From Thysanoteuthis rhombus (taxonomy: Eukaryota > Mollusca > Cephalopoda > Oegopsida > Thysanoteuthidae): a DNA stretch of 64,000 nucleotides. The translations under genes and the position numbers were made by a program. Shown here piece by piece: positions 344 through 64,000 of the stretch (positions within the stretch are counted from its first letter, which is position 1; each line of letters begins with the position of its first letter). The notes below the pieces were generated by a model. It was given only the letters and a program-made list of their open reading frames with translations. It did no database searches and had not been told where the DNA came from. The stretch covers positions 62,021,888-62,085,887 of the forward strand of contig OY735207.1 in the NCBI GenBank assembly GCA_963457665.1, written 5' to 3'.

Positions 344-622
344 TTAGCTCTGGACAATTTCCTGATGAAGTTCTGTAGCTGTTGTTGTAATGTTCTGAAT
401 GTCTGCTGTGGTTACTTCCAATGGTGTCTCCCCAGATGCAATTTGCACACCATCTTGTGCAGTCACGTATTGAATAACAAACTGGTTGCCTGAAAGGTCT
501 TGATTGCCATCAGCAACTAAAACTTCTTGACCTTCCTCTTGTACAATGATGGTTTCAGGGTTCACAGTGACCATCTGACCACTGTCTGATTGCACAGTTA
601 TTTGCTGCTGGCCAAATGCTCC
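344..622 (-). CDS. ZFAT: ZFAT gene 1 terminal exon 13: Gln/Val/Thr-rich tail
   Basis: 279 nt including the TAA stop at 344-346, phase 0 acceptor TTTCAAAG/GG after a T-rich tract. Encodes about 92 residues rich in Gln, Val, Thr and Glu (ITVQSDSGQMVTVNPE..., ending ELHQEIVQS). Such Val/Gln/Thr tails close ZFAT and several related zinc-finger factors and are usually regarded as transactivation-type low-complexity regions. The ATG further upstream in this frame lies in the intron and is not used. Confidence 0.82.
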   Translation of the reverse strand, partial: GAFGQQQITVQSDSGQMVTVNPETIIVQEEGQEVLVADGNQDLSGNQFVIQYVTAQDGVQIASGETPLEVTTADIQNITTTATELHQEIVQS

Positions 623-3600: not shown

Positions 3601-4429
3601 GTTACTATGGACTAAAATTAGTAATTATTAGTATTGTGTAATTAGGAATCAATCATATTGTATAATTACAAATTAATCAGTTAAGCAATAACTGGATCCA
3701 GTTTTAAGCCGTGGAATGCTTTTCACTCTTCTAACCAAGATTCCGAATTGCGTTCTCATATATTGAAATTGCTGCCCTGTGGGGACATGCAGCCCTAATT
3801 CAGTACCACTGGATCTAATTGTAAAGAAAAATATCTCTCATTAAATTTCACTGTCATGACAATCAGAAAAAGTTATGTTCCAATCCACATACTGAGCAGC
3901 GAAAGGGATAGCGGTGAAATAAACATTAAAGAGATAGACAGACAAAGACACACACACTAACGTTATATTTTTATTATTATCATTAACAAGAACAACAATA
4001 TTTCAAGAGAGAATTGTTTTTACCAATTCCGATGCTGTCGTATTCTCCAGAGTCTGGATATCTTGCACCTGGACATGGTGTCGGATCCGCAGATGCCGTT
4101 TCAGGTCAGACAAATTACCAAATAAATAGTCACAGCTAAGGCAACGGTAGACTCGGGAATCAGATGTATTAGTATTTTTTTCAGTAGTTGCTGTATTGCA
4201 AGTGTACTGCATGCCTTTATGATTGCGAGTATAATGAACTTTCATGTAGCCCAGTGTATTGGCAGAATAATCACAATGTTGACATACATAACGTTTCACA
4301 ATGTCATGTGTTTCCATGTGTCGCTTCAAGTGGCTCCTCTGAGTTGCTTCATAGGAACACCTGTGCCAAGAGAGATAAATGCAAATAAATCATGGAAGAG
4401 GTTTCCTTGCATGTTACAAAATCACCCAT

Positions 4430-20200: not shown

Positions 20201-23200
20201 AGAGTTAGAGACCATGAAAGCAAAATGGAACATTACCTAATGATAGGCCGGATATCATTTGGTATGAATAGAGACATATTGAAGAATACCTTGCCAATGT
20301 GCTTAAATCGTACAGTATACTATAAATGCATCATACCATGCATCACTTACTGATGCGAAACATTAGAAATCAACAAAATGAACTGAGAACCAACTTGGAA
20401 TCGTATAGAGCCATCGAAAGAGCAATGCTAGGGAAAACTCAAAAGAGACAGGAAAAAAAAATTTATACTGATCCATAGGTGGACCAGGGTGAAAGATGTT
20501 ATACAAATAACCAAGAGACAAAAATGAAGATGTCATTTGTTCTTGCTATGCATACAGGCCAACAGATGGTTCAAAATGTTAGCAGATCGGTGCCCATAAG
20601 ACAGTAAACACAGTGGTAAAAGACCAGACAAAAGATGGCAAAAGAAAGAAAAATAGGAAGGTTTGCCGGTATGATATGGCAGAGGTCAGTGCAATTGCAG
20701 TTGTCATGGAAGGAGATGGGAAAGGCCTTTGACCAGTAGAGGACTTATGATAATGATGATAAATAGACCACATTCATTGTGATTTTAATCTGAAAATTAT
20801 AGCATCGTTCACCTCCAGTTGTTGTTTCACCATTAAATTATGATTTACGCAATACAGAAGAAGAATGCAATATACCTGTAGAGCTAGAGGGTGTGGTAGT
20901 GGTAGCAGTGGTGGTACTAGTGATACTGGTGATAGGTGTAGCAACAGCAGTAGTAGTTGTTGAAGTAGCAGTAGTTACAGCTGGAGTGGTAACAGTGCTG
21001 ACAGTGGTAGCATTCGGTAACACTGTCTTTGGTTGCAGTTGGTCGACGCTAACAGATTCCAGGGCTTCAAGCAGTGGTTGAACAGCAGCTGTGGTGTCAG
21101 CGGCCTGAGGAGAAGTGATGATCACAACAGCTTTCGAGTCATCTCCTGTTACCATGGCTGCTTGAGCCACTTGAGAGAGCAAATCAGCAGAGTCTACATT
21201 AACGTTTACGGTACCATCAACTACAAAAAGAGAGAAATAAAAATAAGATGAATTAAAAGCACAGATAAGAGAAGAGAGGATGATGAAGGTCGAGATTTCA
21301 GCGCTCCCATATATGTCTATGAATGAAAATGCACTTTTTAGAAACCGTCAACCAAAACTATCAAAATAAGTTTCTTCAGTTTTCAAGTTGATCTGGCTGG
21401 CTGGCTATGTATCAAGCATACAGGTGGCACCAATGGAGCTAGAGGTCTGAAATTTTCAGATATTTACTCGAAATTATGTCTAGAAAAATAAGTTTGTTTT
21501 TTTTAAATTCTACCCCCAAATAATTTTTTTACTTGGGGGGGGGGGGGTGAAGTTGGTCATGTGACAGTTTTGTATTTCTTGATCATAACCTCTTAGAATG
21601 CTTTGAGTTTGAATTTTGAATTATTTTCGACTTGTTACCATAAATTGCCACTATACCTCAAGGTTCTAGTCATGCCTTTGATTACCTTGAGCTCAAAAGA
21701 AATAGAAAATGTTATTAGTGTCAAACTCTTACTATTGAGTTTTAGCTTTATTTTTGTACATAACAATAACGAAATGACAACAACCAGACCAAAAACCAGT
21801 GACATCTTGCACGAATAACAGTGAGATGTTGTTCACCTTTGAGATTCTAATGGAGTGAAGGAGTTTGACCTTAGTGCAGCCAAGCTTGTTACATCAATCA
21901 AAGCAAATGGTGAATCAAACCATGAATGAATGAAAATCAAAATAGGAACAAGAAGACTATTACTATTTCCATTAGATATAAACCCTGCAAAAAAAGTTAT
22001 CATACCGGTTTGCTGGGGATTTTCAGATGTCTCTTCATTGGTAGATTTGAGATAATTAATAAATGAATTTGTGGTTAAAAACATTGGTACAATGTCGCTT
22101 TTTTTTTTTTTAGATCACTTTTGAAAGTATTTGTATCTTTTATGAGTTGGCCAATTCCTCACTGAGACTTAACTCTGGGAGGAGAAGAAGTGGTGCTGAA
22201 CTACAGTAGATTTTTATAATTGAAGCTCATTGCTATGCCCTTGTGTTGCATTGATGAGTGATCGGGATAGAATTAGATATTTTATGCAGTGACAATTGAA
22301 GTCCAATGTGTGAAAGAATGAAGATTTAACAAGTGTTGACTCCAAAATTTGTTTGAACAAGTTTCAGCATTCAGTCTGCTGATTATGCATGGAAAGATCA
22401 ATGGGAAATGGATTGTCAGTGATCAGGAATTTGCAGAAGAACTAATCCTTTGGTTTTCAGAAATCTATCAAGTATTTGATTCTTTCAAAACTCTTGAGCC
22501 AATTCCTACTAAAAATACCATTCAAATATTCAACTAAATGAGTGTTGAATTGAAAGAAAGTCTGATTAGTCACTCGATAGAAACCATCAAATGTTTTTTG
22601 GCAGCAAGCCATGAGGGCGGTGATCAATTAAAAAATTGGGAAAATAGGAGATCAATGGATAACTTACTTATCTTGCCCTTTGTTGGATGGTGATCACTAA
22701 AAAGAGTCTGAATTTAAAAAAAAAACAAACGTGAATGCTAGTGGACACAAATGGATCGATTCAGCACTCACATTGCAGATTGAACAACCCCACCCCCTTG
22801 TAAAAACACTGAAGGGGAAAATTTTCAGAGGAAAAAAAAAAAAAAAATTAAAAAAAATTTTTTTGGAAAAATTCAGCCTTTTAGCTCAAGTCAGCCAAAC
22901 CAACTAAAAATCTTGAAGAAAAGTTTTGACAGTTTTGGTTGACTGTTTTTTATAAGCATAATCAGGAGCAGCAGATTGAAGTAGACTATGAGATTCAAGA
23001 AGCAAAAGTAAAGCTTTTCAAAATTTGACTCTTAAGAAAACTAAGCAAAATTTACCTGATGTGTATTCCAAAGCATCAGCTATCTGGACAGCTGTTTCTT
23101 CTGTGGCAGGAGGAGATGTTGCTGGAGGTGCCTCAGCCACCATCGTAGCTGTTGAAGTGGTAGTGGGAATGCATTCTTTTTTATGGTTAATGAAAAGTTG

Positions 23201-46335: not shown

Positions 46336-46586
46336 TTACGCAACAAGCCTCTGTAGCGTGGGTATATCTTTCGTCAACAGTTGATCAGCAGGTGTGTTTT
46401 CTGTTTTTACTGTGCTTTGTTGCTGCATGTCACTTTCCTCCGTCTTTGTTTTGTCTGTTTTACCAGCAGATGCGTTTTCCGTTTTTAATATGTGTTGCTG
46501 CACAGTACTTTCCTTCGTCTTTGTTATATTTTCTTCACTTTCTCTCTCCTGTGTCTCGCCTGCTTTGTCAGCTGTACTAGTATTCC
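46336..46586 (-). CDS. Gene 2 candidate terminal exon: repetitive K/T/E/Q tail
   Basis: 251 nt, acceptor TTGTTGTTCTAG/GG at 46,587, phase 1, stop TAA at 46,336-46,338. After the split Gly it reads NTSTADKAGETQERESEENI, then two 25-26-residue repeats (TKTKESTVQQHILKTENASA... and TKTEESDMQQQSTVKTENTP...), then DQLLTKDIPTLQRLVA. The repeats differ by substitutions and one whole-codon indel, so the frame is preserved. No similarity to the ZFAT tail or any domain I know. The exon was found because phase and the need for a stop pointed to it. Transcript evidence is needed to fix it. Confidence 0.62.
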
Positions 46587-49500
46587 CTAGAACAACAATG
46601 ACAATGCAACATTTTAAATTCAGAATATCAAAAAGAAAAAGATAATCTTAAATTTACTATGTATTATGGTTTCAGTCCTTTTTCAAGATAATTGAATTAA
46701 AAGACATTAAAAATATATATCGATTTAAGAATGATATTTTAAATACAAATATAATATAATTGCTATATGGCTCTGGGGATCTTCACTGTAAACAAAGAAC
46801 GAATTATAGGAGATGGTATAGTTATTTAGCCACATCATTGCAAGTCGTCTTGAAAAGCAGTTTCCAATAACTTACAGCTTTTTTTAAAAATGTTTCCTTT
46901 ATCTACACCCCCTCAGCAAATGATATGATTTGCAAAATTGTTTATTTCTTTCATTTCCCCATACAAGTATACCATGAGTAAATCAACAGCAGTTATTTTT
47001 ATACTGGGATTTTCTCTATTATACAAATCTCCATTGTATATTTACTTGTATACTTGAATAGAGAGTTGTGTGTTTGATTGTGTAAATGGGAATACATGTT
47101 AAAATATGTGCACATGAGCAAAGACTGTTCAGCATATTTTATGCATTTATATCAGCACCTCTATAGAAACAGATTTTAAACTTATTTAAAATCATTTAAA
47201 AATAAAAGAAATAAATCATTGCTATCTAGTGATGATTTATTTCTATCATAAGGAACCGTCAACCAAAGCCATCACCAAACTGTCAACATAGGTTTCTCTA
47301 GGTTTCAAGTTTGGCTGGCTGGCTGGCAATGTATGTATCATGCATATAGGACACAAGTGAAGCTAGAAGACTGAAAATCAAAACATTTACTCCTTATTAT
47401 GTCTATAAAATAGTTTTTGTTTTTTTTCTAAATTCCCCTCCTAAACAGGTTTTTAGTGGGGGTGGGGGTCAATCCACAATGTAAGTTTATGCAAAATTTG
47501 TCTCTAGTCAAGCCCAGCTGTATAAATGCTTGTTTTTTTTTGAAAATTCAAACTTTTCAGAGATCCAACAAAAGGTGAGAGAAGTACCTTATTCATTCTA
47601 ATTTTTTTTTATTGATCACTCCCAACGGCATACTGCTAAAAGATGTTGGTCACATAACAGTTTCTATTGAGTGACTAACCAAACCAGCTATTTTTCTTTT
47701 ATAAAAAATAAGTGTAATGTCTCTGATATTAATAAATTAAAGAAAGGAGTATAAATTGGCTCAGGTTTTTTCTTCCTGATGACAGAGGATTTAATGGAAG
47801 CACACAACTGCCTTACTGATTTTTTTTTCATCTTTATGATCATTGGGAAAGGTTAAAATCATATATTATTGATATCACTGCCCTACCACCATCTTCATGG
47901 CAGGCTATTATGTTCAATTTCTTTTTCTCTTCTATTCACCGCAAGCAGGAGATGCACTTGGGAAGTGAAACACTGGGAGATGTTAACATTCACAATCACT
48001 AGTGAAACAAGAGGTTGAGTGAATGCTGCAACCTTATCACTACATAGGAAATTTTTCTAGATCACATGATATCGCTTGCACATCTAAGAATAAAAATTGG
48101 ATAACTACTGAATACAGTAGCATAGAAAAGTCTAAAATCAATAGCAGTTGGGAATGGACTATATATATATATATACTACATGTTGTATATCAAGAGCACT
48201 CTCATAACAAGCCCAGATGAAAATCATATCAGGGGAAGAGAAGCAAATTTGACAACTCACCTATCTTTTTCTTTTTGGAAGGACTTGGCCCAGGCACCTG
48301 TTGTACTACTTCTTTGCTATTCATTGGATGCTGCGTCAGAATGTGGCTACGTAACTTTTTCAAGCTAAGAATTAAAAACAAAAAAATTATATCAAATCAG
48401 CAAATTACAAAAGAATCAAATTTCTTTCGTTCTGAGTGTCTTTTGTAGGCCAGAGAACTGAACAGCAGGAGGTGAGAGAAAGAATTTGAATTCACTATAT
48501 TAACCAATAAAAAAATTCAAGAGATAACCTTATAAAAAAAACAATGGAAAGGCTATATCAAGCTAAGTCATTTCAGATACTAACCAATCATGAGGCTTCA
48601 GAAGTGGGAAAAACCAGAAGAATCAATTAACAGTTACAGAAGTAGAAAAGGTTATGTAATAAAAACTGGTTATTGAATATGAAAACTGCCAGTTAAAGAA
48701 CAGACTATAACTTACGTTTTAAACTGCTCGTGACACTCTGGACATTCTAAGCCAGAGATGATACCTCGATGTTTCAGCTCATGATTCCGTAACTGGGTGC
48801 GACTATTTGCTACAAATTCACATTCTTTGCAAGTGAAGGTCACTTTTTCATGTTCCTGTTCTACATGAGGCTTCAGATTGACAGAGATACTTTGATGTTT
48901 CCGCTGATGGTTCACAAACTGCTGGGGATTCTTAGCAACAAAATCACATTCTTTGCATGGGATGTTCATGGTCACCTTGGGATGTTCCCGCCGTACATGA
49001 CGCTTGAGAGTGATACGAGCCATTGCTCGATAATCACAGATGTCACATTGGAATGGCATGTCTTCTGTGAATAGAAGATGAAAGTTTCCTAAACAATGAC
49101 AGTCAATATTTCAAAGTATAAACAAAGCAGATGGGTTAAGGGTTGGTTTAGAATGAAAAAAAATACTTTCAGCTATTCAACAGGAGTCTATTCTATCCAA
49201 AGTCAAGACAAACTCAGTATTGATGATTCAAAAAAATTTTTTGCATTAGTTTGCAAAAAATTGCAAAATAGAAAAAAATAGCCAAAAAATCCTTAAAAAG
49301 ATGCTAAAAATGGCCAAAATGTTGAAGCATTTCAGCACTAAATCAGCAATTTTTACACTGCCAAATTTTTATTTGTCAAAGATGAAATTTCATCTGCAGA
49401 TGAAGATTTAGCATCCATAGAAATGAGTTTTTTCAAACCACCTTGTATTAGCCAGTCAGCAAATTATTAAGTGGTATCATCTGAAAGATAATTGATGATC

Positions 49501-52500
49501 TCATTCATGACTGCTTTAGCTTTCAGATCGAATCATGCTCTTTTTTTGTGATGACTGGATTTAACAGAAGCACATAACAGCCTCACTGATTTCCCTGTCT
49601 ATATGCTGGGCTATAATTTTCAGTTTCTTTCTTTCCTCTTCTCTTCATCAAAGGTAGGAGATACAATTGAACACAGGGAGATGTTAATACTCACAATCAC
49701 CATGGAGACTGGAGGTTGGGGTGGATGCTACAACTTTATCCCAACATCAGTAGAGATCTCATACAGCATCATTAGACTTGCATCACATTGCACCAGAAAG
49801 AAAAAAATTTCTCTCCAAGTTGGTTAACTACTGGAGGCCCATTGCTATCGTAGCACATAAGTTGAAAAATCTCAAGTCAGGAGCATCTTTATATAAATCG
49901 ATAACAGTTGGTTTGTATCTGTCTCTCAAGAGACAAAGGAGTATAACAGCAGGTGACGAAGTCCTGGTGTTTGTTGCATGTGTCAGTTTAGTTGATCCTC
50001 GCAAGTCTCAAGTCAGGTTGAGGCAAGAACTTTATACCTACAAGTTTTTACAACCACCCCCTTCAGCAGGATGCAAGTCCACTGAAAGGATACTTCCACC
50101 CTAATCACACAGCTTAGAATCTAATCAATTACCGAGTGCACAGGGAAATTTGTCTTAATGAAGTCTACCATAATCTTAGCTCATACTTGGAATCAAAACA
50201 GGGATCTTCTGCGTGTGAGGCAGATGTGCTAACCATTACACTATCCGCACATATACTCTCCTAACAAGCCCAGTTGGAAATCATATCAGAGGAAGAGAAG
50301 CAAATTTGACAACTCACCTGTTTTTTGTTTTCGGGGACCTGGTCCAGCTACCCGTTGTACGTCCCTTTTGCTCATGGATGGATGCTCCAGCAGAATGTGG
50401 TTACGTAACTTTTTCAAGCTGAAAATTGAAAGCAAGAAACCGCTAAATAATTTCATTCCGATATTCAAGTAAGTAATACAACTGCCATGTAATGTTGATA
50501 TCAATATAAATGCAAGCAATGTGATGCAGTTGACTTTTCTAGTCATTATGAAAAAACAAGCTGAAGACCCACCCTAGCAAGCAGTCGTAATTTGCTGTAT
50601 GAAAATGTAAAGAAGTAATCCTATAGATGAGCAGAGTAAATTTGCAATTTATGTTTGAACAACATTAACTATTTTTGATATATCTTATCAATTTATTTAC
50701 TTTTTATTCATAGTTTGTTTATATAGTTTTGTTTATAGTTTTAGAAATAACCAACCTTCCTGATTGTAAAGTTTCACATACTTGCCAACTGGATGTTGAA
50801 AATGAAATACAATGAATAAAAAAAAATTTAATAATCCAAAGCAATAATAATATAATTCAAATTGATTTATTTACTTCTATTTCTCATTCATTATTTCCTT
50901 TTTTTCCATTTTTTCCTTTTCATGCCATTTTTAACATCAAGAGAGCAGGTTTATTACAAATCGTAAACTTTCACATTCATTGATTAATCTCAGTTCATGT
51001 ATCAAAAAATAGCTGAATAATCACAAGATTTGAAGAATCAGTGTATTTATTTCATGAAAATTAAATGAATAAGTTTCCGAAAAATTTCACTCTATCCCAG
51101 ATAAAGATAGCACTTTAGAAAATTAAACAACTGACACAAAATTGTTAATCCCCTTCCTAATCATAATTTGCTCAAAATCCTTACCCGTTTCACATTTGTA
51201 CACACAGGAATTGTCATGGTGTTATGCTTTGTAGTTTTTTTAAGAGATAAAATGTATTATTCACTATATTGAAAAAAAAGCAGCACTCAACAGCATTTCA
51301 AAAAATGCCTAAATTTCTTTTTCTCTCAATTACTCTTTGAACTAACCTATTTTCCCTCTATATAAGAGATACAAAGCAACAACTCAATCTTTAACTATGA
51401 ATGATAAAAGCTGCAGGCAAGGCTGTTAATAGAAAGGGGGCACCAAAAAATGCCAGTTTCAATTGTTATTATAAATAAATCAGACCCCCCCCCAAAAAAA
51501 ATCTGACACTATAAACCTTCCTAGGGCTCCCAGGTTGAGCCACTGAAATTTTCATAAAGTTATGTCGAGTTGTTTTTGCAGTAGGCTGCCATATACAGAC
51601 AGACAAGCTAGTGACTATCTACAGAGTTCAGTGTCATCTTCTTATAATTCATCAAATGTCTGTTTGTTACTCCATATTTGTTATCATAATAGATGTAACG
51701 TTTTCTGAAGATAACATTTTTGTACATCAACTTTTTAGCTGATAAACAAAATACATTTTACATGGATTTTTTGTTAGCAAATTTGAGTAATTGAATTAGT
51801 TTTTATTTTTGATGATTATATAATGGCAATATTCCATCAGTAATGCTTTAATTCCCAACTCCTGATAATACCTTTCTTCCTGATTTTCAATGCATAAAAA
51901 TATTGATCGAGGGTTAAAACTTGCTCAAACAAATTTTAGTCACAAAAAATTTGCAAAATTTGGTGATTAAATCCTCCATTCAACTTTCAAGCACTAATGT
52001 GCACCTTATTTGCTAACTGCTGATAGTTAATTAGTCTGAGCAAAAGTTGCAATAAAAAGCAACAAATAAATTAATGATGAAGGTACAAAAAAGTACTTAT
52101 AAAATATAAAAACTTTTTAAAATAATGAGAAAAAGTTATATATAAAAAGAAGCTTATATAATACGCCGAATACTGATTGTAAAAGTTTGCAGTCAACACA
52201 CTGTCTATAACTTACATCCCAAACTTCTTGTGGCACTCGGGACATTCTAAGCCAGTGATATCTTGATGTTTTCGCTGATGGTTCCAAAACTGCTGTCGAT
52301 CATTTGCCACAAAGTCACATTCTTTGCATGGGAGTTTCAAGGTCCTTTTATCATGTTCCCGTTCAACATGACGCTTAAGAGTGATACGAGTCATTGCTCG
52401 ATAATCACAGATTTCACATTGGAATGGCATATCTCCTATGAATAGAAAATAAAAAGTATCCAAAACAACAAAAGCAAATATTTGAAAGTATAAACAAAGA

Positions 52501-52771
52501 ACATTGGTTTGTGGCAGGTTTAGAATGGGAAAAATACTGTCATCTGCTGAACAGCAGTCTATTATAGCCAAATGAGATTTTTAACCAGCTTGAGAATTGT
52601 CTGCCTTCAGCAAATTTCTATATAGTATCTTAAAGATAATTGATCCATAACAGCCTACTCAACTTTCAAATTGAATTATGCATCCCTGTTACTATTGAGT
52701 AACTATACAGTAGTAGGTATTTATATAGTTGTAATCTCAACTTCAGCATCAACACATACTCTATACAAAAT

Positions 52772-52819
<48 letters not shown>

Positions 52820-53426
52820 TGTAAAAGGTGTTACCCTAAAGTTTGGAGAATTTGAATAGATTGCCTAATCTGTCCAAGTCCAGAGTTGACTTCATTTTGA
52901 ATTTTAAAAAAATCTTTTTTTTAAAAGTTAACATTCTCCCACTGGGGATTTAAAATCATAACTAACTGATTGGTAGGTGGCTCTCATGGTGATTAAGCTA
53001 AATTGATGAGTCTTAAATATTTACAAAAATTTCTCCTAAATACATCTGGGCTTATTTCATCTTAATAAATATCTCTGTAAAACATTTGAAATTGTGACCA
53101 AGTAGTGGGATCTCTAACGAACTAGGCCAAAGAGATTAGTTTTATGTATCTACAAAAGTTATCTCACAGACACACAAGGGCTTGTATTTATTTATTAAAA
53201 TGAAATAAATACATTTCAAAAAGTATATTTTTATATTCTTTCTACTTATTTCACATACAATACAAAAATTGCAGTACCCATCTTCAACCAGAATAGAAGT
53301 TAATATGGAGTTGGTCCCTGCAGCAGCCAGGATTGTTTCATTCTTTTGTAAGGTTACCTAGAGTTTCTCTGTCTCACTGGAATTTCATTTTCTACCAATG
53401 TTTGTTTGTTTTTTTTTGTTTTTTTT

Positions 53427-53481
<55 letters not shown>

Positions 53482-56400
53482 GCCTCAAGTTCTTTGAATT
53501 TTTTAGTTACTCCTTGGGAATGGAATATATCTCTATTTGGTAGATAAAAGTAGTTTTAAGGTACATGTAATTCCCAAGAAAGAACAGATGTTTTAAACAG
53601 CAATTGAATTCCACTTCCATTTCCTTATAAACTTATATTTCTCTTTATACAATGAACTTCTAATTTTGATTCAGTCAACAAGAATGGTTGCATTTTAAAC
53701 TTTGAAATCAAGGAAAAAATCTTGACATTTTTGTAACATAGTGGAAAATTTAAAAAAATGATGTTTCTTTAACCTGGGGTTGTAGTCATTCTGATTATTG
53801 AAATCAGTTTATGTCTATCAAGAAAATGGAGTTGAACTGAACTTTTCAGATTGGTATTTTTGCTATTGAAAGTGTGTTTTTTTTTGTTTGTTTTTTTTTG
53901 TTCTTTTTAAAGAGAGACTAGACTAAAAATGGAGGCATAAATTATATAAAAAAATCAATAAAAAGGGAAGATTACATTCAGTTTCTTCAGAATTTTGTTT
54001 TTTTCATCACAGCAGATGCTGCACACATATTGGTTACAACTAATATTTTAACTTTTCACATTAAACTAAATTTAGTCTACCAAATCAATGCAATTCATTT
54101 TTAGTTATGATTGATACTAAAGTGTTATTTGATTTTGATCATACATCTATGGTTAAGAGTGATGTGAGCTTCATGAAAAAAAAAAAAAAAAAAATCAGAC
54201 CAGGGAGAGGATTTTTTTTTCCACTAACATTGATCAATACAAGGACAAAATCCAATCACAGTTTAGGCACTTTCCACTTATGAAAAGATTGAACCAACTT
54301 TTAAGTAATTCAAGGTAACAATTGACCAGAAATAATACCCTGCTGTTGGAAGGTGATCAGTATAAATGTAAGATTGAAGATGGTGTAAGCAACTAAGGGT
54401 GTCTCAATCAGGAATTTGTCACAAAACTAATGATCTGACTCTGGCGTTCTTATCAAGAGATATTTCAATGCAACAAAATCATTGAATAGCTTACACTGTG
54501 AGGATTCATTCCAGGGAGCTTATCTGAAAGACTGCCTTCATTGCATAAGGACTTCTATTCAGAGTCTCTGCAGCTCTTTGCAATTGAGTTTTTTGAGTAG
54601 ACTGTTTCTATAGACTTGAGCTAAACTCCGACCAAATTATTGCCAATTGAACCTCAATTTGAACTATGTTGGTTTTAGTGAAGTGTTGTCAATTCGTTTT
54701 TGGGTTTGTTTTTTTTTTAAAGTCGCAGATCAGGACGTTTAATATTAATCACTCACGCACTGCAGAAAATTCTAGCATCAAGACCATAATATATAAATAA
54801 AAAGATAGTTATAATTTAATCAGAATTATGTTTAATTTAATTTAATAACATCATAACTACTGATTGGCTTGGCTACAATGTCTGACTTGATTGTGGAAAA
54901 TAAAATAGAATCATTCCAATTGCTACAATTGGATTGCACACGTTTTTAAGGTCATGAGGACACTATTATCGACATTTAATCGCCGATTGGACTTGAAGGA
55001 TCGTTGATCTGACAAAATCTAATCGGCAACCGATCATGAACATAGATCATTAGCAAACTGATCTCTGGAAAACAAGGTTTCAAACCATTGTGTTATTGTG
55101 AGTACACTAATAGGTATTTCCTACCATCAATTAATGTTATGACAATTCCATCAAATATGTGATCACTGACAAGGCTTGTTTTTAAAATGATAGCATATAA
55201 AGATCTTAAAACACCCTCCCTCTTACTTTGGTGTTGGCTCTGTATATCTATGTTCTTACTAAACTACAATATTTGCAAACAACCATAGGCTGTACTTACC
55301 TGTATGAATCCGTACGTGGTGTTCATAGTCAGCATGTTTTTTGAAAAAGCGTCCACAGAATTCACATTCTTCCGTCCCAAATGTCTGCCTCATCTTCTTA
55401 AATATCTCTACAGAGAGAGGGTGGTAACCAAGCCTCTTAATAAGGTCCAAGGCCTTGGTCGATTTGCTAGTATCATCATCCTCAATCAGTAAAACCTCCC
55501 CATTCTCAGTCTCTCCCGTTTCTGAGCTATTGTTTTGAAGTTTCAACCGTTCTTCTCCAATACTCACTGCATTTGAAACAGGTGAAGAAGAATCATTATT
55601 GCTTCTATCGGTCGGATCTTCCTGATCAGCCATATTGTTTCCAGCAGCAGTGTCAATCTCATTCGCCGATTCAGGCTCATTACTGTGAGTAGTGGTCAAG
55701 GAACGGTTATTTCTCTCTTCCACCGCTGTTTCCAGCTCATCATTGTCTGTAGTGGTCAACCCTACTTTGACCCTTACATTCTCAATGCCACCATTTTCAG
55801 AAGTATCCAGATCAGTTTCACCATTTTCATTTGACTCTTGTGATTCGGCTCCCATGGTTTCAGCATCCTTTGCAACGTTGGATACCTGGTCAGACATTCT
55901 TATCCCCACAGCATCTGAAGTTGTCACCGTGGTAGTTGTTGATTCAGATTCTGTAGTAATGTCATCGGGCAGTAAGTAAAACGATGAACCAATACTCTGC
56001 TCTAAAATACTATCAGTGGTCCGTTCAGTGCTACTATTAATGTGGGTACTGGTAATATGCTCCAACAGTCTCACCGAGCTCACGAACATAGTCTGACACA
56101 AACAGCAGCAATAAATAACTTGGTGTTTGAGGAAGTGTTTTTCTAGGTATTTCCTTCGGCTTGCTGCATAGTTGCACAACTCACAGCGTTGCATACATGG
56201 AATATCCTTGATGTTATGTACAAACAAATGCCGATCACAGTCAATCTTCCTCTTGAACTTACGGTTACACACATGACACTCATGGAAGACCTTGGTGTCA
56301 CCACGTACGTTGCGCCCAGCCAAGAATTGTGCCAAGTACTTTTGTCCTATCTTAGTTGAGCTATGATACGAGCGCACATGATTGATTAGTGACTTGACAG

Positions 56401-59400
56401 AACTGTAGTCCTTCTTGCAAATCCCACAGCGATGCCGCACATTGCTGTGGATCAGCACATGCTCTACAAGATGACTCTTGTTGACAGTCTTGAAAGGACA
56501 CTGGGAGCACATGTAATACTGGCCGGTGTGTTTACGCATGTGAGTATACAAGCTACCTAAAAAGGAATCAGAAGAAGTTCAAATGAAAATTAAATACAGG
56601 CAGAAAAGGATTTAAAAATTCATTGCTTCCATTTGAAATCATAACAACTTGGGTTTTTTGTGTATGTTTATACAGTAATTAAATAGCAATAAAAAGCAAG
56701 ATTTGTTCCAAGATGTATCTGGTATATTAAACATTTGTTACTTTTGTTATTACTACAATGTTCAAATTGATACATTCTACAGCTTTCTTCAAGTGAACAA
56801 TCCATGAAAAAAAGAGTCCACTCTTTTGCTTACAGGTTGTACAACTGAAGAAGGTTAGAAGGTGGATTGGCTGAAATGTTGTAGCAATTATAAAAGTGTA
56901 CACAGGAAGAAGTTCAATAGTCCAAACCACTCTTCTGATGATAATTCTTTAGGTAATTCCTATAGACTCATTGCGGAGCAGAGGGTCACAATCACTTTCC
57001 TGCAGATTCAGTATTATGTAGCTTTTATGGAGCGGAGTTACTAGTCCCACACTAAACTCACTTCCTTTACCAAGGTTTGAGAAAAGCTATGGCAACTGCG
57101 AAGTCTGAAGTGAATGTAAACAGCTTCAACAAAGCCAGCCTGATCCTCTATAATGATAATTTTTGTCTTCTCAAAATTATAAATATGAGATCTAGTGAGT
57201 CGATGCACATTTAAAGCAATTTTTTATCATATGCTGATAGAATTTTAAAATTTAGAACCATCAAACCAGAAGATAAATAAGGCAAAATATCACATACACA
57301 ATGTAAACAAATCCTACCTACCTTTAGAACTTGTTGCATATGCACACTCGGAACATTTGAACGGTTTTAGATTAGTATGAGTGAGACAGTGCAGTCGCAT
57401 ATGTGACAAGGTCTTGAACACTTTGTCACACGTGTTACATGCGTACAAGGACAGGTAGGCTGAAGGCCCAGTGCGTGGTGCAGATGGTGCATTCTCGTTC
57501 AAGTCCTGCTCAATCACTCTTACTCGGAACATGTGATCTACTGCACTCAAGTCAACACTGAGGCTTTGCTCAAAAGCCAATTTCTCTTCTTCTGTATTGA
57601 AGACAGGGATGTCCTGGATGTGGTTCTCGGACTTTTCTCCAGTGCTATCCACATGGGTTTCATCCTCTTCTTGGTCACCAACTGCTGCAACTTCCTCTGC
57701 TCTATCTTCACACTCGTCATCTTCACAAAAAAAAAAAAAAAGGGAGGAGTTTTAATAAAGCAGCCATTTGATTGATTTTTTTTATAGGAAGATGTTCTAT
57801 ATAACCACTGTAGGCCCAATATAACACAGCTTGATATAATGAGGTTTGAGCATGGACCCCAATTTTCAAAACGTTAAATTCTGCAATCAAAATGATATCT
57901 TAATACAAAAATTGAAAGACCCCCAAGGATTGTTATGCACTAACTATCCCTATCAATGTCAAATTTCCAGTATTTCGAGCCTTCAAATGTTGAGTATATT
58001 TGCCCGGGTTCAACCTCAGAGTGACCGATCTAATGATTTTATCATTAGATTTTGTTGGATCTTCATCTTTTTAGCGACAGATGAGAGGCAAAAGGGGCAA
58101 GGAGTTTCGTTTAATGATTACCAAAATGTTTTTGTCCAATTCATTTCTTTAGCCAATACCCACCCCCGCTTATGCCCTCTTATTTGTCAGCCCTCCATCA
58201 AAATGTACCTGTTACCCTCTAGTGGGATGCCATGATTCAAAAAATGTCTCTTCATTTCTGCGCAAATAACAGGTGTCGGTCTTGAAGTTGGTGGGGGAGG
58301 TTTACACCTTCCCCAGGCTCTGTTAGCATACATGACGTACTTACAGTAAATGATACTGATAAATTACTTCTATTTTCACTCTCCGTCAGGAAATGACACC
58401 CAGTATTCTTCAGGCAGTAAAGAGGAAAACCTGGATCAAGGTTTGGGAAAATGGAAAATTCACAACAATGCAGACTCACTTATAACGAATGTGCTCCGAC
58501 ATATAACAGGTCTTCATTGTACATCCAGAAACTTGGAAGTTGATGATTTGAACTACAATGTCCAATTATCAAGTGGGAGTGTTATATTTCCTTTTAGATA
58601 GACACTCAACTATCAATTGATGACAGACTTAACACTGATAGTTCATCAATAATTCTTATACTGGAGTTTAGTATAGATCAGCATCTTAAATGGAAAGCAG
58701 ATAAATCTAGACTCCATTTTTTTTCCCCACTCAGGCATGTTAATTAGTTATGAGAGGATTTAAGCTTAGGGTAGAAATGTGAAATGTCCCCTCCAAAATA
58801 TTTGGTGGAAAAAAGCTAAAACCTCATCAAAGAATCATTTCAGTTATCTGTTGTCCAAGATTCAATATCTTTTTGAATAGATAAAATTAATCATTTTTTT
58901 CCAAACAAAAGAAGGATGTAATATTATCGCCTTTGGTTTGTTTTGGTTTTCAAATTGCTCGTTTCGTGAAATAAATTTAAAGAGGAGGGATAGTAAGAAA
59001 GCTAGAAAATTAAACAAATAGAAATAAGAAGATCATAACGGGTAATCACTTTAATGTTCCCAGAAACATCAACAATCATACAAAAATTCTAACCAGATGC
59101 TTTACTATATTCATGTTCAGAAAAAAAAAATAGAGAAAAACTTACCTTGAACAGGAATTGGTGATTCCTCCGGTACAGCATCTCTCTGAACATTTTTCTC
59201 TTCTCCCTTGCGTGGTCGACCACGACCGCGAACTACAAAACAAATATCAAAACCAAATAAAGTAGTTATACAATATTCTCCCTAAAGAAAGAATAAAACA
59301 AGTCCCAGCAAAATTTGAGTGAAACAAAATCAAAATGTATAACAACACAGTAAAGAGGTAAATTTTAATAAATTACTACACAACCTTGTGACCTTTTGGT

Positions 59401-62400
59401 CAGATTGCAAGGGAAAATTAATGCAATCTGAATTGACCTAGATTTTTTGTTTTTTACGTAATTACAAATAAATGAATAAGAGAAACTACTCTGTGATTAG
59501 CATTTAAAAGTTATCTCTTTAGACAAATCATTCATCATAATATAGATAAGGATTTTGATCATAAATGGATAAATAAAACCAGACTTTTACTATTATATAA
59601 ATAGATGAAATTGGAATGTTATTAAAATTGTGAGTATGAGTAGAGACCCAACACTACTATTACTATTATTCAGTACCAGACCACCAGTATTTTTTAACCA
59701 AATGCATTTTAGAGATACTTTAATTTAATACCTCTGGCTACAAAGCACTGTTTTGCAATATAGAGATGACAAAATCAGACTTTTGGTAATTTATAGATGA
59801 GTTAAAAAACCTTACCTTGAACAGGGATCACTAATTCCTCAGGTGCAACATCTCTCTGAGCATTTTTTTCTTCTCCTTTGCGTGGTCGACCACGGCCACG
59901 AGCTACAAATATAAACAACCAAACTTTCAATATTTTGAAAATGTTCTCTCCAAAGAAAGAATTATCAGTTCCCAGCAAAATTTAATTGAACTCATTAAAA
60001 GCAAGAGTCATGCATAACAACTCAGTAAAGATATTAATTTTGATAAAATATCTTATGACACTGATTTATTTGATCACCTTTTCAGAGAAAATTAGTACAA
60101 TCTGACAACACCAGAATGGAATGTATTTTTTTACGTATTTACCTAATAAACAAATAAAGGAAACTTCCCTAAAATTAGCATTTGATAGTTATCTCTCTTG
60201 ATAAATTGGTTGTTATGATATAGATATGGGTTTGGGCCATTTATTAACAAAATCAAACTTCTATACAGGTAGATAGATGAACATGAATCAAAAGTTCAAG
60301 GAGGCATTCACTATGAAGTTAAAACACCATCATTGCCAGATCACGTGACCCCTGACTAGAAAATTTTTATAGGTGAGAAGCATCTTATCAAGAAACACCC
60401 TTCTATCAAGTTTCAAGTAAATCTAACTTAGAATAGCCAAGAAAATCAATTTTAAATAAAGTTCAAATACTTTTATTGACAAATGACGTGACAATTAGTA
60501 AAAAATTTTTGTAGGTAGGAAGTATCTTATCAGAGGACACCTTCCCATCAAGTTTAGAGTAAATCTGACATAAAACAGCTGAGAAACAATACGAGGACTG
60601 AAAGAGAGAGCTGCTTATAGAGAGACAAGGATGCCTCTAAAAGAAATGATAATCCTTATCATGGTGAGTGCAAATGCAAACCTCACACTTGGGGTATCTT
60701 AATTCAATATCTCTAGCTAATTTGTATCATTCCAGCTACTTAGATATAGTCAGCTTCAAGCGAAAGAAAATGAACAAACAGGCAGTAAGAGATAGAAAAA
60801 CAGAGGAACATAATTTTCTTGAATGTTAACATCTGAGTTGGAAAACAACAAATTTGGAATTCGTCCTCTCTTGAAATTAAATAGGCATTTATTAGTTATG
60901 ACAGAATTTAAGTTCAGGATGGAAATGTCCAATGAGAAAAGGCAAAAAGCTAAAACCTCATCCAGGAATCATATCAAATTTCTGTTGTCCAAGCTTTGAC
61001 AGCTTTTTGCATCGATAAAATTAATGAAACAGTTGTTTTGTTTTTTTACAAGCAAGAGAAGAATACAATCAATATCCTTCATTTTGTTTTGGTGTTCATG
61101 TGTTTAAAAAAAAAACCCCTAACAAACAAAAAAAAGCCATCAAGATGAGGGATAGCCAGGAAGCTAGATAATTAAGTAAATAGGAAAAAGATTATAAAGA
61201 GTAATCATTTTAATTTTCCCCAAATAGAAACATTGATATACAATCAAATTCTACAAAAATTTCAGTGAAATGCTTCACCATATTCATGTTCAAAAGGAAG
61301 AAGACCTTACCTTGAACAGGAATTAGTAATTCATCAGTTTCCTTAGGTACAGTATCTCTCTGAACATTTTTCTCTTCTCCCTTACGTGGGCGTCCACGAC
61401 CTCGAGCTACAAATACAAACAACCTAACTTGAATAATTTTTTTTTTTTTTACATATTTCGAAAATAAATAGATGTGGAAACTACTCTATAATTAACAATT
61501 AATGAGACAGAAAAACAGAGGAACATTATTTCTGTACATTAACACCTTAATTGGAAAACAGAAAACTAGTAGGTGTTTTTAAAGTAATACAGGTTCTAAG
61601 TTCAAGGTGGAATTATCTCTTGGAAAAGGGCAGGAGGTAAAATATTAAAATCTCATCCAAAAATCATTTCAGTCCTCTTTCGTCTAAGCTTCAATATCTT
61701 TTTAAGATGATAATGAAATTACTGACATTTTCTAATTTCACGGTTTCTACCATCACAAGAGAGATGTTATCTCATCTCTTCAGTTTTGTTTATAAATGGT
61801 GCATCTAATTAAAAAATACAACAAAAAAACAAACAAAAAACAACATCAGAAGGAGTTATAACAGGAATGCAAGATAATTAAACAAACAGAACTAAGATCA
61901 AAAAGTGTATCATATATTTTGGTTAGTAAGACAATCTTCTGAAAAGAGACCTCAATTTTAATCGGAATTTCATGGTTTAGGTAGATCACCATTCAGTCAG
62001 TTTAGGGATCCTGCCTATAAGATGAGCCCATGTTTTTTGTGGGGGGGAGGTCTTCTTTTTTTTTTTTTTTAAAAGATGTTTCACAGGTCATATTATCAAT
62101 CAAAATATACGGGAATCACTTTAATTTTACCCAAACAGAAACATTGACATGTATATCAGTTTTACAAAAATTTTAATGAAATTCTTCACCATATTCATGT
62201 TCAAAAAGAAAAAAAACTTACCTTGAACAGGAATTGGTGATTCCTCAGGTGCAGCATCTCTCTGAACATCTTTCTCTTCATCCTTGCGAGGTCGACCTCG
62301 ACCGCGAACTACAATTATCAAAACCCAAACTTTAAACATTTTCAAACTGATCATTTTAGAACTTGGACATGTGTATATTAGTTGAAACAGGATTTAAGTA

Positions 62401-63383
62401 TGGTGTGGAAATATCTCCTAAGAAATGGTTGGTGGCAAGAATCTAAAAACTCATCCAAGAATCATTTCAGTTATCTGTTGTCCAAGTGACAATATCTTAT
62501 TCATGCTGATAATAAATATAATTAAGATTTATCATTTAATTGATTTCTCACAAGCAAAAGAGAAATGTTATCTTATCTGGTTTAGGATTTGTTTCTGGGT
62601 TTTTTGGGGGGGGTGGTGGTATTCATTTGAGAGAAAAAAAACATCAAGGGGGATAGGGAGAAGGTTAAATAATTGAACAAATCAAACTCAGATATCATTA
62701 TTATTAACAATTTAATCCTTGCAAAAAAATTCAGATGTTTGAACTTATGAGATGATTTTTTTGAGGAAAAAAAAATACTGATTCCATTTAGCCAGCAAGA
62801 TTAGCTTGTTGATCATTAATTGTCTTTTGACATTATTTGATAATGCATTTCGAGGTTAGACCATCAAAAGTGGGACATCTGACAAGGATCGAACCCATTA
62901 TAACAGCCTGCAAGATTAGCTAGCTTATCATTGATATACAACGTGCATCCTCATTGATTTTTTCTCTCCATATGAACAACTAGTTACCCCTGAGTGAAAA
63001 AATCCACGGATATATTTGTAAAAGTACTGAATTCATTTCACTGCAAGAGGCCATAGTTTCAAAGGTTGGGAAGGAAGGATTTTCATCAGTAGAATTGTTA
63101 CCTTTAATTTGGAAAGTCAATTGTTATGGACAGAAAACCAAGAAAATCACTGTTCATTACATAAGTGAATTTCTGACTACATCTCAATTTCACTCCCTAC
63201 TGAAAAAAATTTGTCATTTGCAGGGATATTGACAAATAAACCAATTATACAAAAAATTCAAATAAATGCTTCATTATATTTACATTCATTCATATATTTT
63301 GGTTAATAAGGTGAACTTTAGATAAGAAGTCTGAATTTCACAGTTTTAGCTCACTGTTTTTTTTTTTTTTAAAGATGATCTCA

Positions 63384-63422
<39 letters not shown>

Positions 63423-64000
63423 TATTTGCAGAAATATTCACATTAATCTAATTTCACCCAAGTAGGGACATTAACATATAAACCAATTCTAAAACAATTC
63501 CAATGAAATTAGTCACCATATTTGAGTTGAAAAAAAAAAAAAAAAAAATTACCTTGTATACCTTGAACAGGAATTGGTAATTTCTCAGGTTCCTTAGGTA
63601 CAGCATCCCCAGGAACAATTTTCTTTTCTCCTTTGCGTGGTCGACCACGACCACGAGCTACAAATATAACAATCAAACTTTATATATTTTTAAAATGTCC
63701 TTTAAGAAAGAAAAAAGAAACGGTCCCTAGCAAAATTTAAACAAACCCATGACTAAGATACACTTACAAGAGAAAAGCATCCAAGTCAACAGATATATAT
63801 ACGAGAGGAAAGCATTCAAATAAAATCAAAGAGATAAACTGAATAGTACAGGCATATACTAAGTCAACTTTAATTGGAGAGGAATGAACAAAGCAGTAGG
63901 AAGGTAGAAACAGAAAAACAGAAAAAAATTCTTTTGTACATTAACATCTAAGTAAAAATAAGCAAAATAAAAATTCTTTTTTTCAAATTAGGTAGTTGTT
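46336..64000 (-). CDS. Gene 2: tandem ZFAT-like paralogue, 5' end outside window
   Basis: Twelve in-window exons with GT..AG borders: 63562-63657, 62222-62308, 61311-61406, 59816-59902, 59146-59232, 57322-57720, 55300-56556, 52216-52435, 50318-50418, 48716-49064, 48261-48364, 46336-46586. They total 3134 nt and stay in one frame from a split codon to TAA (1043 residues). Layout: five AT-hooks, acidic spacer, ZF3-ZF10, ZF11-ZF13, a second ZF11-ZF13 group with an extra finger, then a novel Lys/Thr/Glu/Gln-rich tail. There are 15 intact fingers in the window. Compared with gene 1 it lacks the exon 4 CCHC finger, ZF14-ZF19 and the ZFAT tail. No stop or lost zinc ligand in the intact fingers suggests a functional gene under constraint. 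It is probably a nuclear DNA-binding protein; competition or cooperation with gene 1 is inference. Confidence 0.82.
46587..48260 (-). other. Gene 2 last intron
   Basis: Non-coding. Contains dispersed repeat R copy 4 (47,250-47,690) and AT-rich sequence. No ZF14-ZF19-like exon on the minus strand. Confidence 0.6.
47250..47690 (+). repeat. Dispersed repeat family R, copy 4
   Basis: Same orientation as copy 1: GGAACCGTCAACCAAAGCC, TTTGGCTGGCTGGCTGGCAA, the G-rich TTTTTAGTGGGGGTGGGGG block and TTGGTCACATAACAGTTTCT in the same order. Confidence 0.7.
48261..48364 (-). CDS. Gene 2 ZF13b exon, second copy
   Basis: 104 nt, phase 2 to 1, acceptor ATTCTTAG/C, donor AGATAG/GTGAGT. Encodes LKKLRSHILTQHPMNSKEV and a lysine-rich end (SKKKKI). 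Open and splice-competent, though it has no start codon of its own. Its phase-1 donor needs a downstream phase-1 acceptor, which is met by the exon at 46.6 kb. Confidence 0.8.
48716..49064 (-). CDS. Gene 2 ZF11-ZF13a exon, second copy (expanded mosaic)
   Basis: 349 nt, phase 1 to 2, acceptor TTCACAG/AA, donor AAAAC/GTAAGT. Encodes CDICDYRAMARITLKRH, CKECDFVAKNPQQFVNH, then a finger remnant lacking its Cys pair (SVNLKPHVEQEH), then CKECEFVANSRTQLRNH and CPECHEQFK. The first half resembles the 52.2-kb exon; the second half resembles gene 1 exon 7. The exon therefore has three intact finger bodies plus the ZF13 Cys half. Confidence 0.87.
49065..50317 (-). other. Gene 2 intron with SINE
   Basis: Non-coding. 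Shares 49,080-49,160 and 49,440-49,540 with the sequence upstream of gene 1 exon 7. Carries SINE family copy B at 49,980-50,254. Plus-strand open frames here (for example 49,778-50,104) are intron and SINE sequence. Confidence 0.6.
49980..50254 (-). mobile_element. tRNA-derived SINE, family copy B
   Basis: Minus-strand head GTGCGGATAGTGTAATGGTTAGC (box A) and CCCTGTTTTGATTCC (box B), followed by the same body as the copy at 17,310-17,550, including CCCTGTGCA and ACTTGTAGGT. The copies are in opposite orientation and lie in non-equivalent introns, so they inserted independently. Confidence 0.72.
50318..50418 (-). CDS. Gene 2 ZF13b exon, first copy
   Basis: 101 nt, phase 2 to 1, acceptor ATTTTCAG/C, donor AAACAG/GTGAGT. 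Encodes LKKLRNHILLEHPSMSKRD and a basic linker. Paralogue of gene 1 exon 8 with one codon deleted. Confidence 0.85.
50419..52215 (-). other. Gene 2 intron, homologous to gene 1 intron 7
   Basis: Non-coding. 50,465-50,560 and 51,700-51,990 align with gene 1. The middle part, 50,570-51,700, has no counterpart and is AT-rich. No exon seen. Confidence 0.65.
52216..52435 (-). CDS. Gene 2 ZF11-ZF13a exon, first copy
   Basis: 220 nt, phase 1 to 2, acceptor TTCATAG/GA, donor GGGAT/GTAAGT. Encodes CEICDYRAMTRITLKRH, CKECDFVANDRQQFWNH and CPECHKKFG. Relative to gene 1 exon 7 it has two extra codons between ZF11 and ZF12. ZF13 is completed by the 50.3-kb exon. Confidence 0.87.
52777..52816. repeat. (TA)n microsatellite
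   Basis: About 40 bp of TA dinucleotides in a gene 2 intron. The equivalent gene 1 position (near 10,200) has only a short ACATGTATACATGT, so the tract grew after duplication. Confidence 0.88.
53427..53480. repeat. (TC)n(AC)n compound microsatellite
   Basis: A TC run passing directly into about 38 bp of AC repeats, preceded by two poly-T tracts. Confidence 0.9.
55300..56556 (-). CDS. Gene 2 ZF4b-ZF10 exon
   Basis: 1257 nt, phase 1-1, acceptor TTTTTAG/GT, donor ATACAG/GTAAGT. Paralogue of gene 1 exon 6, about four-fifths identical over ZF5-ZF9 by eye. All Cys and His ligands are kept, and helix residues of several fingers are the same (for example NKSHLxEH in ZF5). The Ser/Thr/Glu spacer is rearranged: a block is deleted after ZF9 and a LTTT.. 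N(D/E)(P/L)E segment is repeated. ZF10 is CEFCGRFFKKHADYEHHVRIH. Confidence 0.9.
56557..57321 (-). other. Gene 2 intron, homologous to gene 1 intron 5
   Basis: Non-coding. It aligns with gene 1 at both ends and around 56,740-56,930 but lacks the 12,690-13,030 insert of gene 1. Confidence 0.65.
57322..57720 (-). CDS. Gene 2 acidic spacer and ZF3-ZF4a exon
   Basis: 399 nt, phase 1-1, acceptor TTTGTGAAG/AT after a T-rich tract, donor CTAAAG/GTAGG. Paralogue of gene 1 exon 5 but 42 codons shorter: the Ala-rich and Asn/Asp-rich insert of gene 1 is missing. ZF3 (CNTCDKVFKTLSHMRLH) is unchanged at its key positions, and ZF4 starts with CSECAYATSSKG. Confidence 0.88.
57721..59145 (-). other. Gene 2 intron where the CCHC-finger exon is missing
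   Basis: I read the minus strand for a C-x2-C...H-x-C exon like gene 1 exon 4 and found none. 57,795-58,560 looks like an old DNA transposon piece: TATAAC-rich ends such as CCACTGTAGGCCC and AACGAATGTGCTCC, with open frames on both strands but no domain. 58,800-58,900 is AT-hook-unit flank. Confidence 0.5.
59146..59232 (-). CDS. Gene 2 AT-hook exon e
   Basis: 87 nt, phase 1-1, acceptor TTTGTAG/TT, donor TTCAAG/GTAAGT. Core VRGRGRPRKGEEKNVQRDAV, short PEESPIPVQ tail. The next exon in phase is the acidic exon at 57.7 kb. Confidence 0.82.
59816..59902 (-). CDS. Gene 2 AT-hook exon d
   Basis: 87 nt, phase 1-1, acceptor TTTGTAG/CT, donor TTCAAG/GTAAGG. Core RGRGRPRKGEEKNAQRDVA with the short PEELVIPVQ tail, as in exons b and e. 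Confidence 0.82.
59903..61310 (-). other. Gene 2 intron with a two-unit 142-bp repeat
   Basis: At about 60,325-60,590 two diverged copies of a 142-bp unit follow each other. Each starts ATTGmCArATsACGTGAC and contains TTTTTrTAGGTrrGAAG, CAAGTTT and AGTAAATCT. The rest shares flank with other AT-hook cassettes. Confidence 0.6.
61311..61406 (-). CDS. Gene 2 AT-hook exon c
   Basis: 96 nt, phase 1-1, acceptor TTTGTAG/CT, donor TTCAAG/GTAAGG. Core RGRGRPRKGEEKNVQRD, then a PKETDELLIPVQ tail. Full-length tail like exon a. Confidence 0.82.
62222..62308 (-). CDS. Gene 2 AT-hook exon b
   Basis: 87 nt, phase 1-1, acceptor ATTGTAG/TT, donor TTCAAG/GTAAGT. Core VRGRGRPRKDEEKDVQRDAA, then PEESPIPVQ. Three codons shorter than exon a, in the PKE...L tail. 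Confidence 0.82.
63386..63418. repeat. (GT)n microsatellite
   Basis: About 33 bp of GT dinucleotides between AT-hook exons a and b of gene 2. Confidence 0.9.
63562..63657 (-). CDS. Gene 2 AT-hook exon a
   Basis: 96 nt, phase 1-1, acceptor TTTGTAG/CT, donor TTCAAG/GTATAC (a second usable donor CAAG/GTAATT nine nt further would add three codons). Hook core RGRGRPRKGEKK. The tail PKEPEKLPIP is the one most like gene 1 exon 3, so this may be the least changed copy. Confidence 0.82.
63658..64000 (-). other. Gene 2 intron reaching the window edge
   Basis: AT-rich, with intron flank like that upstream of other AT-hook exons (CAAAATTTAA, acagaaaaacag). No further AT-hook exon before the edge; upstream exons of gene 2 must lie beyond 64,000. 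Confidence 0.5.

Follow-up and report, generated by a model that had tools for sequence, protein, structure and literature searches.

A likely tandem paralogue of ZFAT with remodelled exon cassettes in the cephalopod Thysanoteuthis rhombus

Closest described systems

The 64,000-nucleotide stretch of Thysanoteuthis rhombus DNA analysed here (hereafter the window; positions 62021888-62085887 of its contig, in a genome of 2.73 Gb) carries two genes, here called copy A and copy B, that are related to ZFAT (ZNF406), which encodes a zinc-finger (ZF) transcription factor with an AT-hook. In the literature, ZFAT is conserved from fish to human (PMC4427657) and has one AT-hook (PMC4427657, PMC11354804). 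Both copies are like vertebrate ZFAT in the order and sequence of ZF3-ZF13 and in an AT-hook that separates the main array from an N-terminal finger, and copy A is also like it in ZF14-ZF19 and in an exon with the motif AVNILQ-II. Copy B is unlike it in having six hooks rather than one, extra fingers ZF11-ZF13 and a new tail, and in lacking ZF14-ZF19 and the C-terminus. In A and B alike the N-terminal finger is of the CCHC type and is equated with ZF1 of vertebrate ZFAT by position alone. Finger numbers from ZF1 to ZF19 follow the UniProt style; those of the nuclear magnetic resonance paper are apparently one lower.

Two further comparisons are relevant. Multi-AT-hook factors (HMGA type, MLL2) resemble copy B in carrying several hooks per protein, but in copy B the hooks share the protein with 16 zinc fingers, and copy A's hook exon is their homologue. 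HMGA is a small AT-hook protein without zinc fingers, and copy B, with its 16, was rejected as a member. The second comparison is with the C2H2 expansions described in coleoid cephalopods (PMC12513265), which this locus resembles in its duplicated C2H2 genes and its C2H2-rich genome, where a first pass gave 17,868 candidate C2H2 stretches, 150 of them scored. The clusters of that paper comprise 25 to 984 sequences, whereas A and B form a two-copy tandem of a conserved orthologue with remodelled domains. The literature searched yielded neither a ZFAT paralogue nor a ZFAT with several hooks; its mollusc and invertebrate part says little.

Two head-to-tail ZFAT genes

The exon models were built on the minus strand at single-base level, and the next 40 kb past the window edge were also fetched; coordinates are in window numbering, so that values above 64000 denote DNA upstream of copy B, outside the window. 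Two ZFAT genes lie head to tail, both on the minus strand. Copy A (23254-344) has 12 coding exons for 1306 amino acids, with a single stop at its end. Copy B (66663-46336) runs in phase from ATG to stop through 14 coding exons for 1128 amino acids; the window edge cuts it, leaving 12 of the 14 exons inside. An earlier note on this DNA had rightly placed a second ZFAT copy head to tail beside an orthologue, and the DNA comparison bears this out with collinear exon order and five still alignable intron blocks 75-82% identical; its distance of 12 kb was mistaken, as copy B's stop and copy A's ATG are 23.1 kb apart. Common descent of the two was found over exon 1 and ZF3-ZF13.

Exons of copy B:
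66663-66465, minus strand, outside the window: exon 1, ATG and CCHC finger; 72.7% identical to copy A exon 1
64248-64204, minus strand, outside the window: AT-hook exon 1, RGPGRPRK, divergent; from comparison of the upstream DNA
63553..63657, minus strand: AT-hook exon 2, RGRGRPRK, phase 1-1; from open frame, AG/GT sites and phase
62222..62308, minus strand: AT-hook exon 3; exon model
61311..61406, minus strand: AT-hook exon 4; exon model
59816..59902, minus strand: AT-hook exon 5; exon model
59146..59232, minus strand: AT-hook exon 6; exon model
57322..57720, minus strand: ZF3 and start of ZF4, phase 1-1; overlaps a DNA block 84.9% identical to copy A
55300..56556, minus strand: rest of ZF4, ZF5-ZF10 and a long linker; similarity to copy A, phase
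52216..52435, minus strand: ZF11, ZF12 and Cys half of ZF13; similarity to copy A, phase
50318..50418, minus strand: His half of ZF13; similarity to copy A, phase
48716..49064, minus strand: fused exon with ZF11', ZF12', a relic third ZF11, ZF12'' and Cys half of ZF13'; phase 1 in, 2 out
48261..48364, minus strand: duplicated His-half exon of ZF13'; similarity, phase
46336..46586, minus strand: terminal exon, 82-residue tail and stop; coding score, with predicted splicing

Exons of copy A:
23056..23254, minus strand: exon 1, ATG and CCHC finger (ZF1 by position); 72.7% identical to copy B exon 1
20876..21220, minus strand: exon 2, T/V-rich linker, no counterpart found in copy B; exon model
18596..18691, minus strand: single AT-hook exon, RRRGRPRK, phase 1-1; exon model
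13418..13942, minus strand: ZF3 and start of ZF4; exon model
11111..12526, minus strand: rest of ZF4 and ZF5-ZF10; exon model
9650..9863, minus strand: ZF11, ZF12 and Cys half of ZF13; exon model
8258..8361, minus strand: His half of ZF13; exon model
5610..5889, minus strand: ZF14-ZF16 and start of ZF17; exon model
4024..4360, minus strand: rest of ZF17, ZF18 and ZF19; exon model
3409..3460, minus strand: small exon with EEPPVYTEEAET; exon model
2042..2115, minus strand: exon with AVNILQHIID; similarity to the presumed human C-terminus
344..622, minus strand: last exon, C-terminal tail and stop; exon model

As modelled, copy A is a near-complete ZFAT orthologue, because of single-stretch matches to human ZFAT structures, its alignment to human ZFAT, and its C-terminal fingers. 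It has one AT-hook near the N-terminus and 18 fingers (17 by pattern, plus ZF14, which the pattern missed). Its ZF3-ZF6 match the human ZFAT structures 2rsi and 2rsj in single stretches of 77.5 and 75.3 bits; by summed score these chains come 8th and 9th, but none of the stretches printed for the three highest chains exceeds 57.4 bits. ZF14 matches the ZFAT chain 2elp in one stretch of 39.7 bits, the printed stretches of the two best chains reaching at most 23.8. Against human ZFAT, 91/237 and 46/142 residues are identical over ungapped columns, and the C-terminal fingers give E values of 7e-16 and 1e-15; the human sequence used agrees with the two ZFAT chains in the part that they cover, ZF3-ZF6, apart from the first residues of the chains. 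The counterpart of AVNILQHIID in human ZFAT is presumably AVNILQQIIE, and the two small C-terminal exons were added to copy A on similarity to the presumed human C-terminus. Human ZF1 gave no match to copy A exon 1, and human ZF2 was not found in A or B.

In copy B, ZF4-ZF6 match 2rsi in one stretch of 78.5 bits (residues 1-81 of 82). By summed score four chains stand above this one; the stretches printed for three of them do not exceed 34.1 bits. A genome-wide search with a 418-residue stretch of the ZF4-ZF10 exon of copy B gave 103 rows, headed by copy B itself (942.5 bits, row 1) and copy A (323.3 and 286.6 bits, rows 2 and 3); the match that came next had 55.1 bits and 31% identity, scoring being confined to the best 100 of 5347 candidates. 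Among those candidates, this one large exon matches strongly only A and B. Similarity also extends into the 5' flanks, at 23.3, 28.9, 29.3-30.2 and 33.8-34.2 kb on the side of copy A and at 66.8, 72.2, 73.7-75.5 and 76.2-76.6 kb on that of copy B. These shared blocks suggest that upstream sequence was carried along in the duplication, and repeats may explain some of them.

Architecture of copy B

On its modelled exons, copy B is a remodelled ZFAT paralogue and not a ZFAT of standard architecture. Its domain order is ZF1, six AT-hook exons, ZF3-ZF13, a second ZF11-ZF13 cassette and the tail, with 16 complete-ligand fingers (15 by pattern, plus that of exon 1). All 12 in-window exons are open and phase-compatible, with 12 AG acceptors, 11 GT donors and the stop at 46336; because the AG/GT sites were selected during modelling, the splice signals are no independent test. 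The earlier note had described copy B as keeping ZF3-ZF13 and multiplying the AT-hook while losing a CCHC finger and ZF14-ZF19 and ending in an unrelated tail, all in open, in-phase exons. Most of this description agrees with the exon models, the CCHC loss being the part that fails: the finger is present in exon 1, beyond the window edge that cuts copy B, and the piece without a counterpart, upstream DNA included, is copy A's exon 2 (21220-20876). The copy A exons for ZF14-ZF19 yield in copy B only finger-to-finger matches of at most 43.9 bits, against self scores of 241 and 212. For the later copy A exons, which encode the ZFAT C-terminus, no counterpart was found in B (for 3460-3409, by DNA comparison alone). 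The ZF11-ZF13 duplication with its fused exon, and the small copy A exons at 3460-3409 and 2115-2042, were absent from the earlier note.

The five in-window hook exons of copy B all encode RGRGRPRK, the canonical AT-hook core. At least 9 substitutions separate these cores and all are synonymous, a pattern with a probability of about 3e-5 without selection. Each AT-hook exon, the ZF3 exon and the ZF4-ZF10 exon is of phase 1-1, and the pair of ZF11-ZF13 exons together forms a 1-1 unit.

The second ZF11-ZF13 cassette includes a fused exon whose joint lies at about 48881/48882, where the alignments to A and B meet. Its 5' half is nearer to copy B's own exon (83.1% vs 78.5% for A) and its 3' half nearer to copy A's (85.3% vs 79.1% for B's); the third ZF11 within it consists of a His half alone, without the Cys pair. 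Related intron stretches (47903-48045 and 49609-49747) flank the cassette. Since the block at 48-49.5 kb is in phase with copy B and bordered by these related stretches, it would be a cassette duplication inside copy B, and a remnant of a third ZFAT gene was rejected on the same grounds. An exchange with copy A stays possible, as the 3' half of the fused exon is nearer to A than to B.

Copy B ends in a tail of 82 residues rich in T, E, K and Q, entered in phase 1. An imperfect internal repeat with an offset of 78 bp, or 26 codons, lies at 46386-46450/46464-46525. The tail has a coding score of 0.386; of 3233 non-coding windows, with stops disregarded, 0.15% score as high or higher. A polyadenylation-like hexamer lies about 190 bp 3' of the stop, with further ones beyond. 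Splicing of the tail to the exon at 48261 is predicted, and a real copy B with some other ending, to which 46586-46336 would not belong, has to be weighed. No relative confirms the tail: it has one genome match, itself (8 candidates scored), and no match to the tail of copy A, and two overlapping frames on the plus strand are also long and open. Nevertheless, the acceptor is in phase, the other five frames over the exon score -0.37 to 0.27, the internal repeat has an offset of whole codons, and the single genome match means that the tail is not a high-copy repeat. Another ending is thus rather unlikely, although it is the strongest of the competing explanations.

Slightly less probable is that A and B are alternative halves of one transcription unit, with ZFAT isoforms made by splicing between them. 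The two share a strand, the gap between them is 23 kb and their junctions are mostly of phase 1, so that exons of B could splice into those of A. However, both A and B begin with a separate ATG exon, in either case with alignable flanks and a candidate acceptor just 5' of the ATG, and both end in a stop of their own.

Age of the duplication and selection on copy B

We consider it likely that copy B represents an intact ZFAT paralogue in tandem with copy A, held under purifying selection and remodelled by exon cassettes; the part of this reading that calls it an intact gene under selection is very probable. Five alignable intron blocks of A and B differ by 18-25% (Jukes-Cantor distance 0.21-0.30), a divergence that counts only blocks alignable by blastn, and four exon pairs are 79-89% identical (11-21% divergence). 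The duplication is therefore not recent. In the four exon pairs, 11/11 gaps are multiples of three, against 5/20 in the five intron blocks.

The ratio of nonsynonymous to synonymous substitution rates (dN/dS), obtained by a simple Nei-Gojobori count, is 0.31 over 639 shared codons (bootstrap 0.24-0.40), with single exons at 0.27-0.42 and exon 1 at 0.39; for the fused exon it is 0.18 in comparison with A and 0.34 with copy B's own exon. A value near 1 was one of the outcomes that the earlier note had named as refuting a working gene, and the ratio found is well below it. Copy B has no internal stop in 1128 codons. When drift was simulated over its 12 in-window exons, mean stop numbers were 6.6, 12.6, 17.0 and 21.2 at K of 0.05, 0.10, 0.15 and 0.20, and 0/400 runs were free of stops at each K. 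None of the 44 zinc ligands of ZF3-ZF13 differs between A and B. Compared with human ZFAT over 379 shared-finger columns, A and B each have 13 unique changes, and change is not significantly enriched at predicted base-contacting residues, assigned by canonical spacing (14/44 vs 33/147 at other finger positions, P = 0.23). The shared fingers of copy B are thus about as constrained as those of A and give no sign of special adaptation, so that of the earlier note's "working neofunctionalised gene rather than a pseudogene" the intact, constrained gene stands and the neofunctionalisation finds no support in these fingers.

A pseudogene in decay, rearranged in part and still open in frame as a leftover of recent duplication, would account for the relic finger in the fused exon, for the absence from B of exon 2 and the exons from ZF14 onward, for a first hook (64248-64204) that is shortened and divergent, with a proline in its core and a place outside the test of synonymous change, and for the His-half exon of the second cassette, where dN/dS is 1.02 against A (34 codons) and 0.62 against B's own exon (33 codons). 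The divergence of the alignable intron blocks makes the duplication too old for this, and the stop-free frame, the in-frame exonic indels, the purely synonymous change in the five in-window hook cores and a rate in B equal to that in A over the 379 columns all speak against decay. We therefore rejected the pseudogene as the best reading and regard it as very improbable. An assembly duplication of one locus, for which nothing was found in favour and which the earlier note had listed as a refuting outcome, is as good as dismissed by the position of both copies on one 72-Mb contig, by their differing exon content and by the 11-21% exon and 18-25% intron-block divergence.

The divergent hook and the His-half exon also count against an intact, selected and remodelled ZFAT paralogue, and further points do so as well. 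The dN/dS values are pairwise and average over the branches of A and B. As to ZFAT identity, ZNF568, CTCF and others score higher than the ZFAT chains for copy A when scores are summed over many fingers, and for its ZF10-ZF12 no ZFAT chain of those fingers was among the best 60 of 281. The Pfam family AT_hook (PF02178) scores 15.9 bits, under its cut-off of 17.4. In the hook-exon tree, all three inner branches are open, so that the order of hook duplication is not fixed, and the hook array might predate the gene duplication and have been lost from A; no relic hook turned up in copy A when 1-46000 was searched with the hook exon.

Proposed origin and function

We propose a head-to-tail duplication that took in the gene and probably some of its 5' flanking DNA. 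In copy B the AT-hook exon would then have multiplied to six and the two-exon ZF11-ZF13 cassette would have been duplicated, its second copy becoming fused inside an exon; the exons from ZF14 onward would have been lost and a new tail exon taken up in their place through a phase-1 junction. Because they are phase-1 units, the hook and finger cassettes could multiply without a break of frame. The predicted protein would comprise ZF1, six AT-hooks, ZF3-ZF13 and four extra fingers, and would be a nuclear DNA-binding protein with a higher avidity for the AT-rich minor groove. Copy B probably binds DNA differently from copy A, given its six hooks, extra finger block and new tail; the case for an altered function comes from this architecture.

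The N-terminal fingers of ZFAT are predicted to prefer AT-rich DNA and the C-terminal ones GC-rich DNA, with four recognition units, two in each half (PMC4427657). Copy B keeps the first three predicted units, duplicates the fingers of the third and loses the fourth. With three of four units kept, and the fourth and the C-terminus gone, it would bind at a subset of ZFAT-type sites, where it would act as a modifier or competitor of ZFAT and not as a second version of it, and a preference for AT-rich DNA may follow from the six hooks and the lost fourth unit. The duplicated third unit points the opposite way: the ZF10-ZF13 unit, kept and partly duplicated, belongs to the half predicted to prefer GC (PMC4427657), and we lowered our estimate slightly because the duplicated ZF11-ZF13 sit there. 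An AT-rich-biased modifier or competitor of ZFAT is accordingly a tentative proposal, with the odds somewhat against it. Expression of copy B, its splicing to the tail, its DNA preference and its antagonism of ZFAT are all predictions from the genomic sequence.

More speculatively still, copy B could be a lineage-specific polyvalent binder of AT-rich DNA, such as heterochromatin of satellites or centromeres, and could oppose ZFAT or shift it elsewhere. This would fit with the AT-preferring N-terminal fingers being kept, the six hooks, and the loss of the C-terminus and of one of the two GC-preferring units, the fingers of the other being duplicated. Vertebrate ZFAT works at centromeres with CENP-B (PMC11354804), and copy B could therefore have evolved with the satellite DNA of its host; we consider this improbable. 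In the white-body transcriptome of Octopus maya, a ZFAT-annotated transcript is among the hematopoietic fingerprint proteins (PMC6522055).

Surrounding DNA

Between the two genes, a stop-to-stop frame of 958 codons (29792-32668, minus strand) has a PHD finger match of 24.1 against a Pfam cut-off of 24, with OTU and MULE transposase domains below their cut-offs, and is probably a DNA transposon. No protein-level counterpart of it was found in the 40 kb upstream of the window; the DNA at 29294-30246, which includes its 3' end, has a counterpart at 73.7-75.5 kb. On the plus strand, 36357-36760 holds a fragment whose translation resembles a PIF/Harbinger-type transposase.

Several repeats were also observed. 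At 42586-42879, a 31-bp unit is repeated in tandem 9.5 times with 94% matches, and a 34-bp tandem repeat (3.8 copies) lies at 23363-23491, just 5' of copy A exon 1; DNA overlapping the latter (23298-23413) has a counterpart at 66802-66919, upstream of copy B exon 1. A dispersed repeat of about 200 bp occurs at 21342-21544, 38917-39130 and 47248-47468 (71-74% identity, either orientation), one of these in the last intron of copy B. The Pfam scan gave finger families, the sub-threshold AT-hook and several weak or unrelated sub-threshold matches, and the transfer RNA scan found none. Elsewhere in the genome, many of the 150 listed C2H2 matches were seen by eye on contig C17, with a run near 31.7-32.0 Mb of contig C46, which suggests large zinc-finger clusters on these two contigs.

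Implications

On the reading that we favour, an invertebrate carries a near-complete ZFAT orthologue and, adjacent to it, an apparently intact six-hook paralogue with a duplicated cassette and a new C-terminus. The pair would constitute a natural experiment on the roles within ZFAT of its hooks, C-terminal fingers and C-terminus, and would be an example of how a gene built from phase-1 exon cassettes may be remodelled by exon duplication while its frame is kept.

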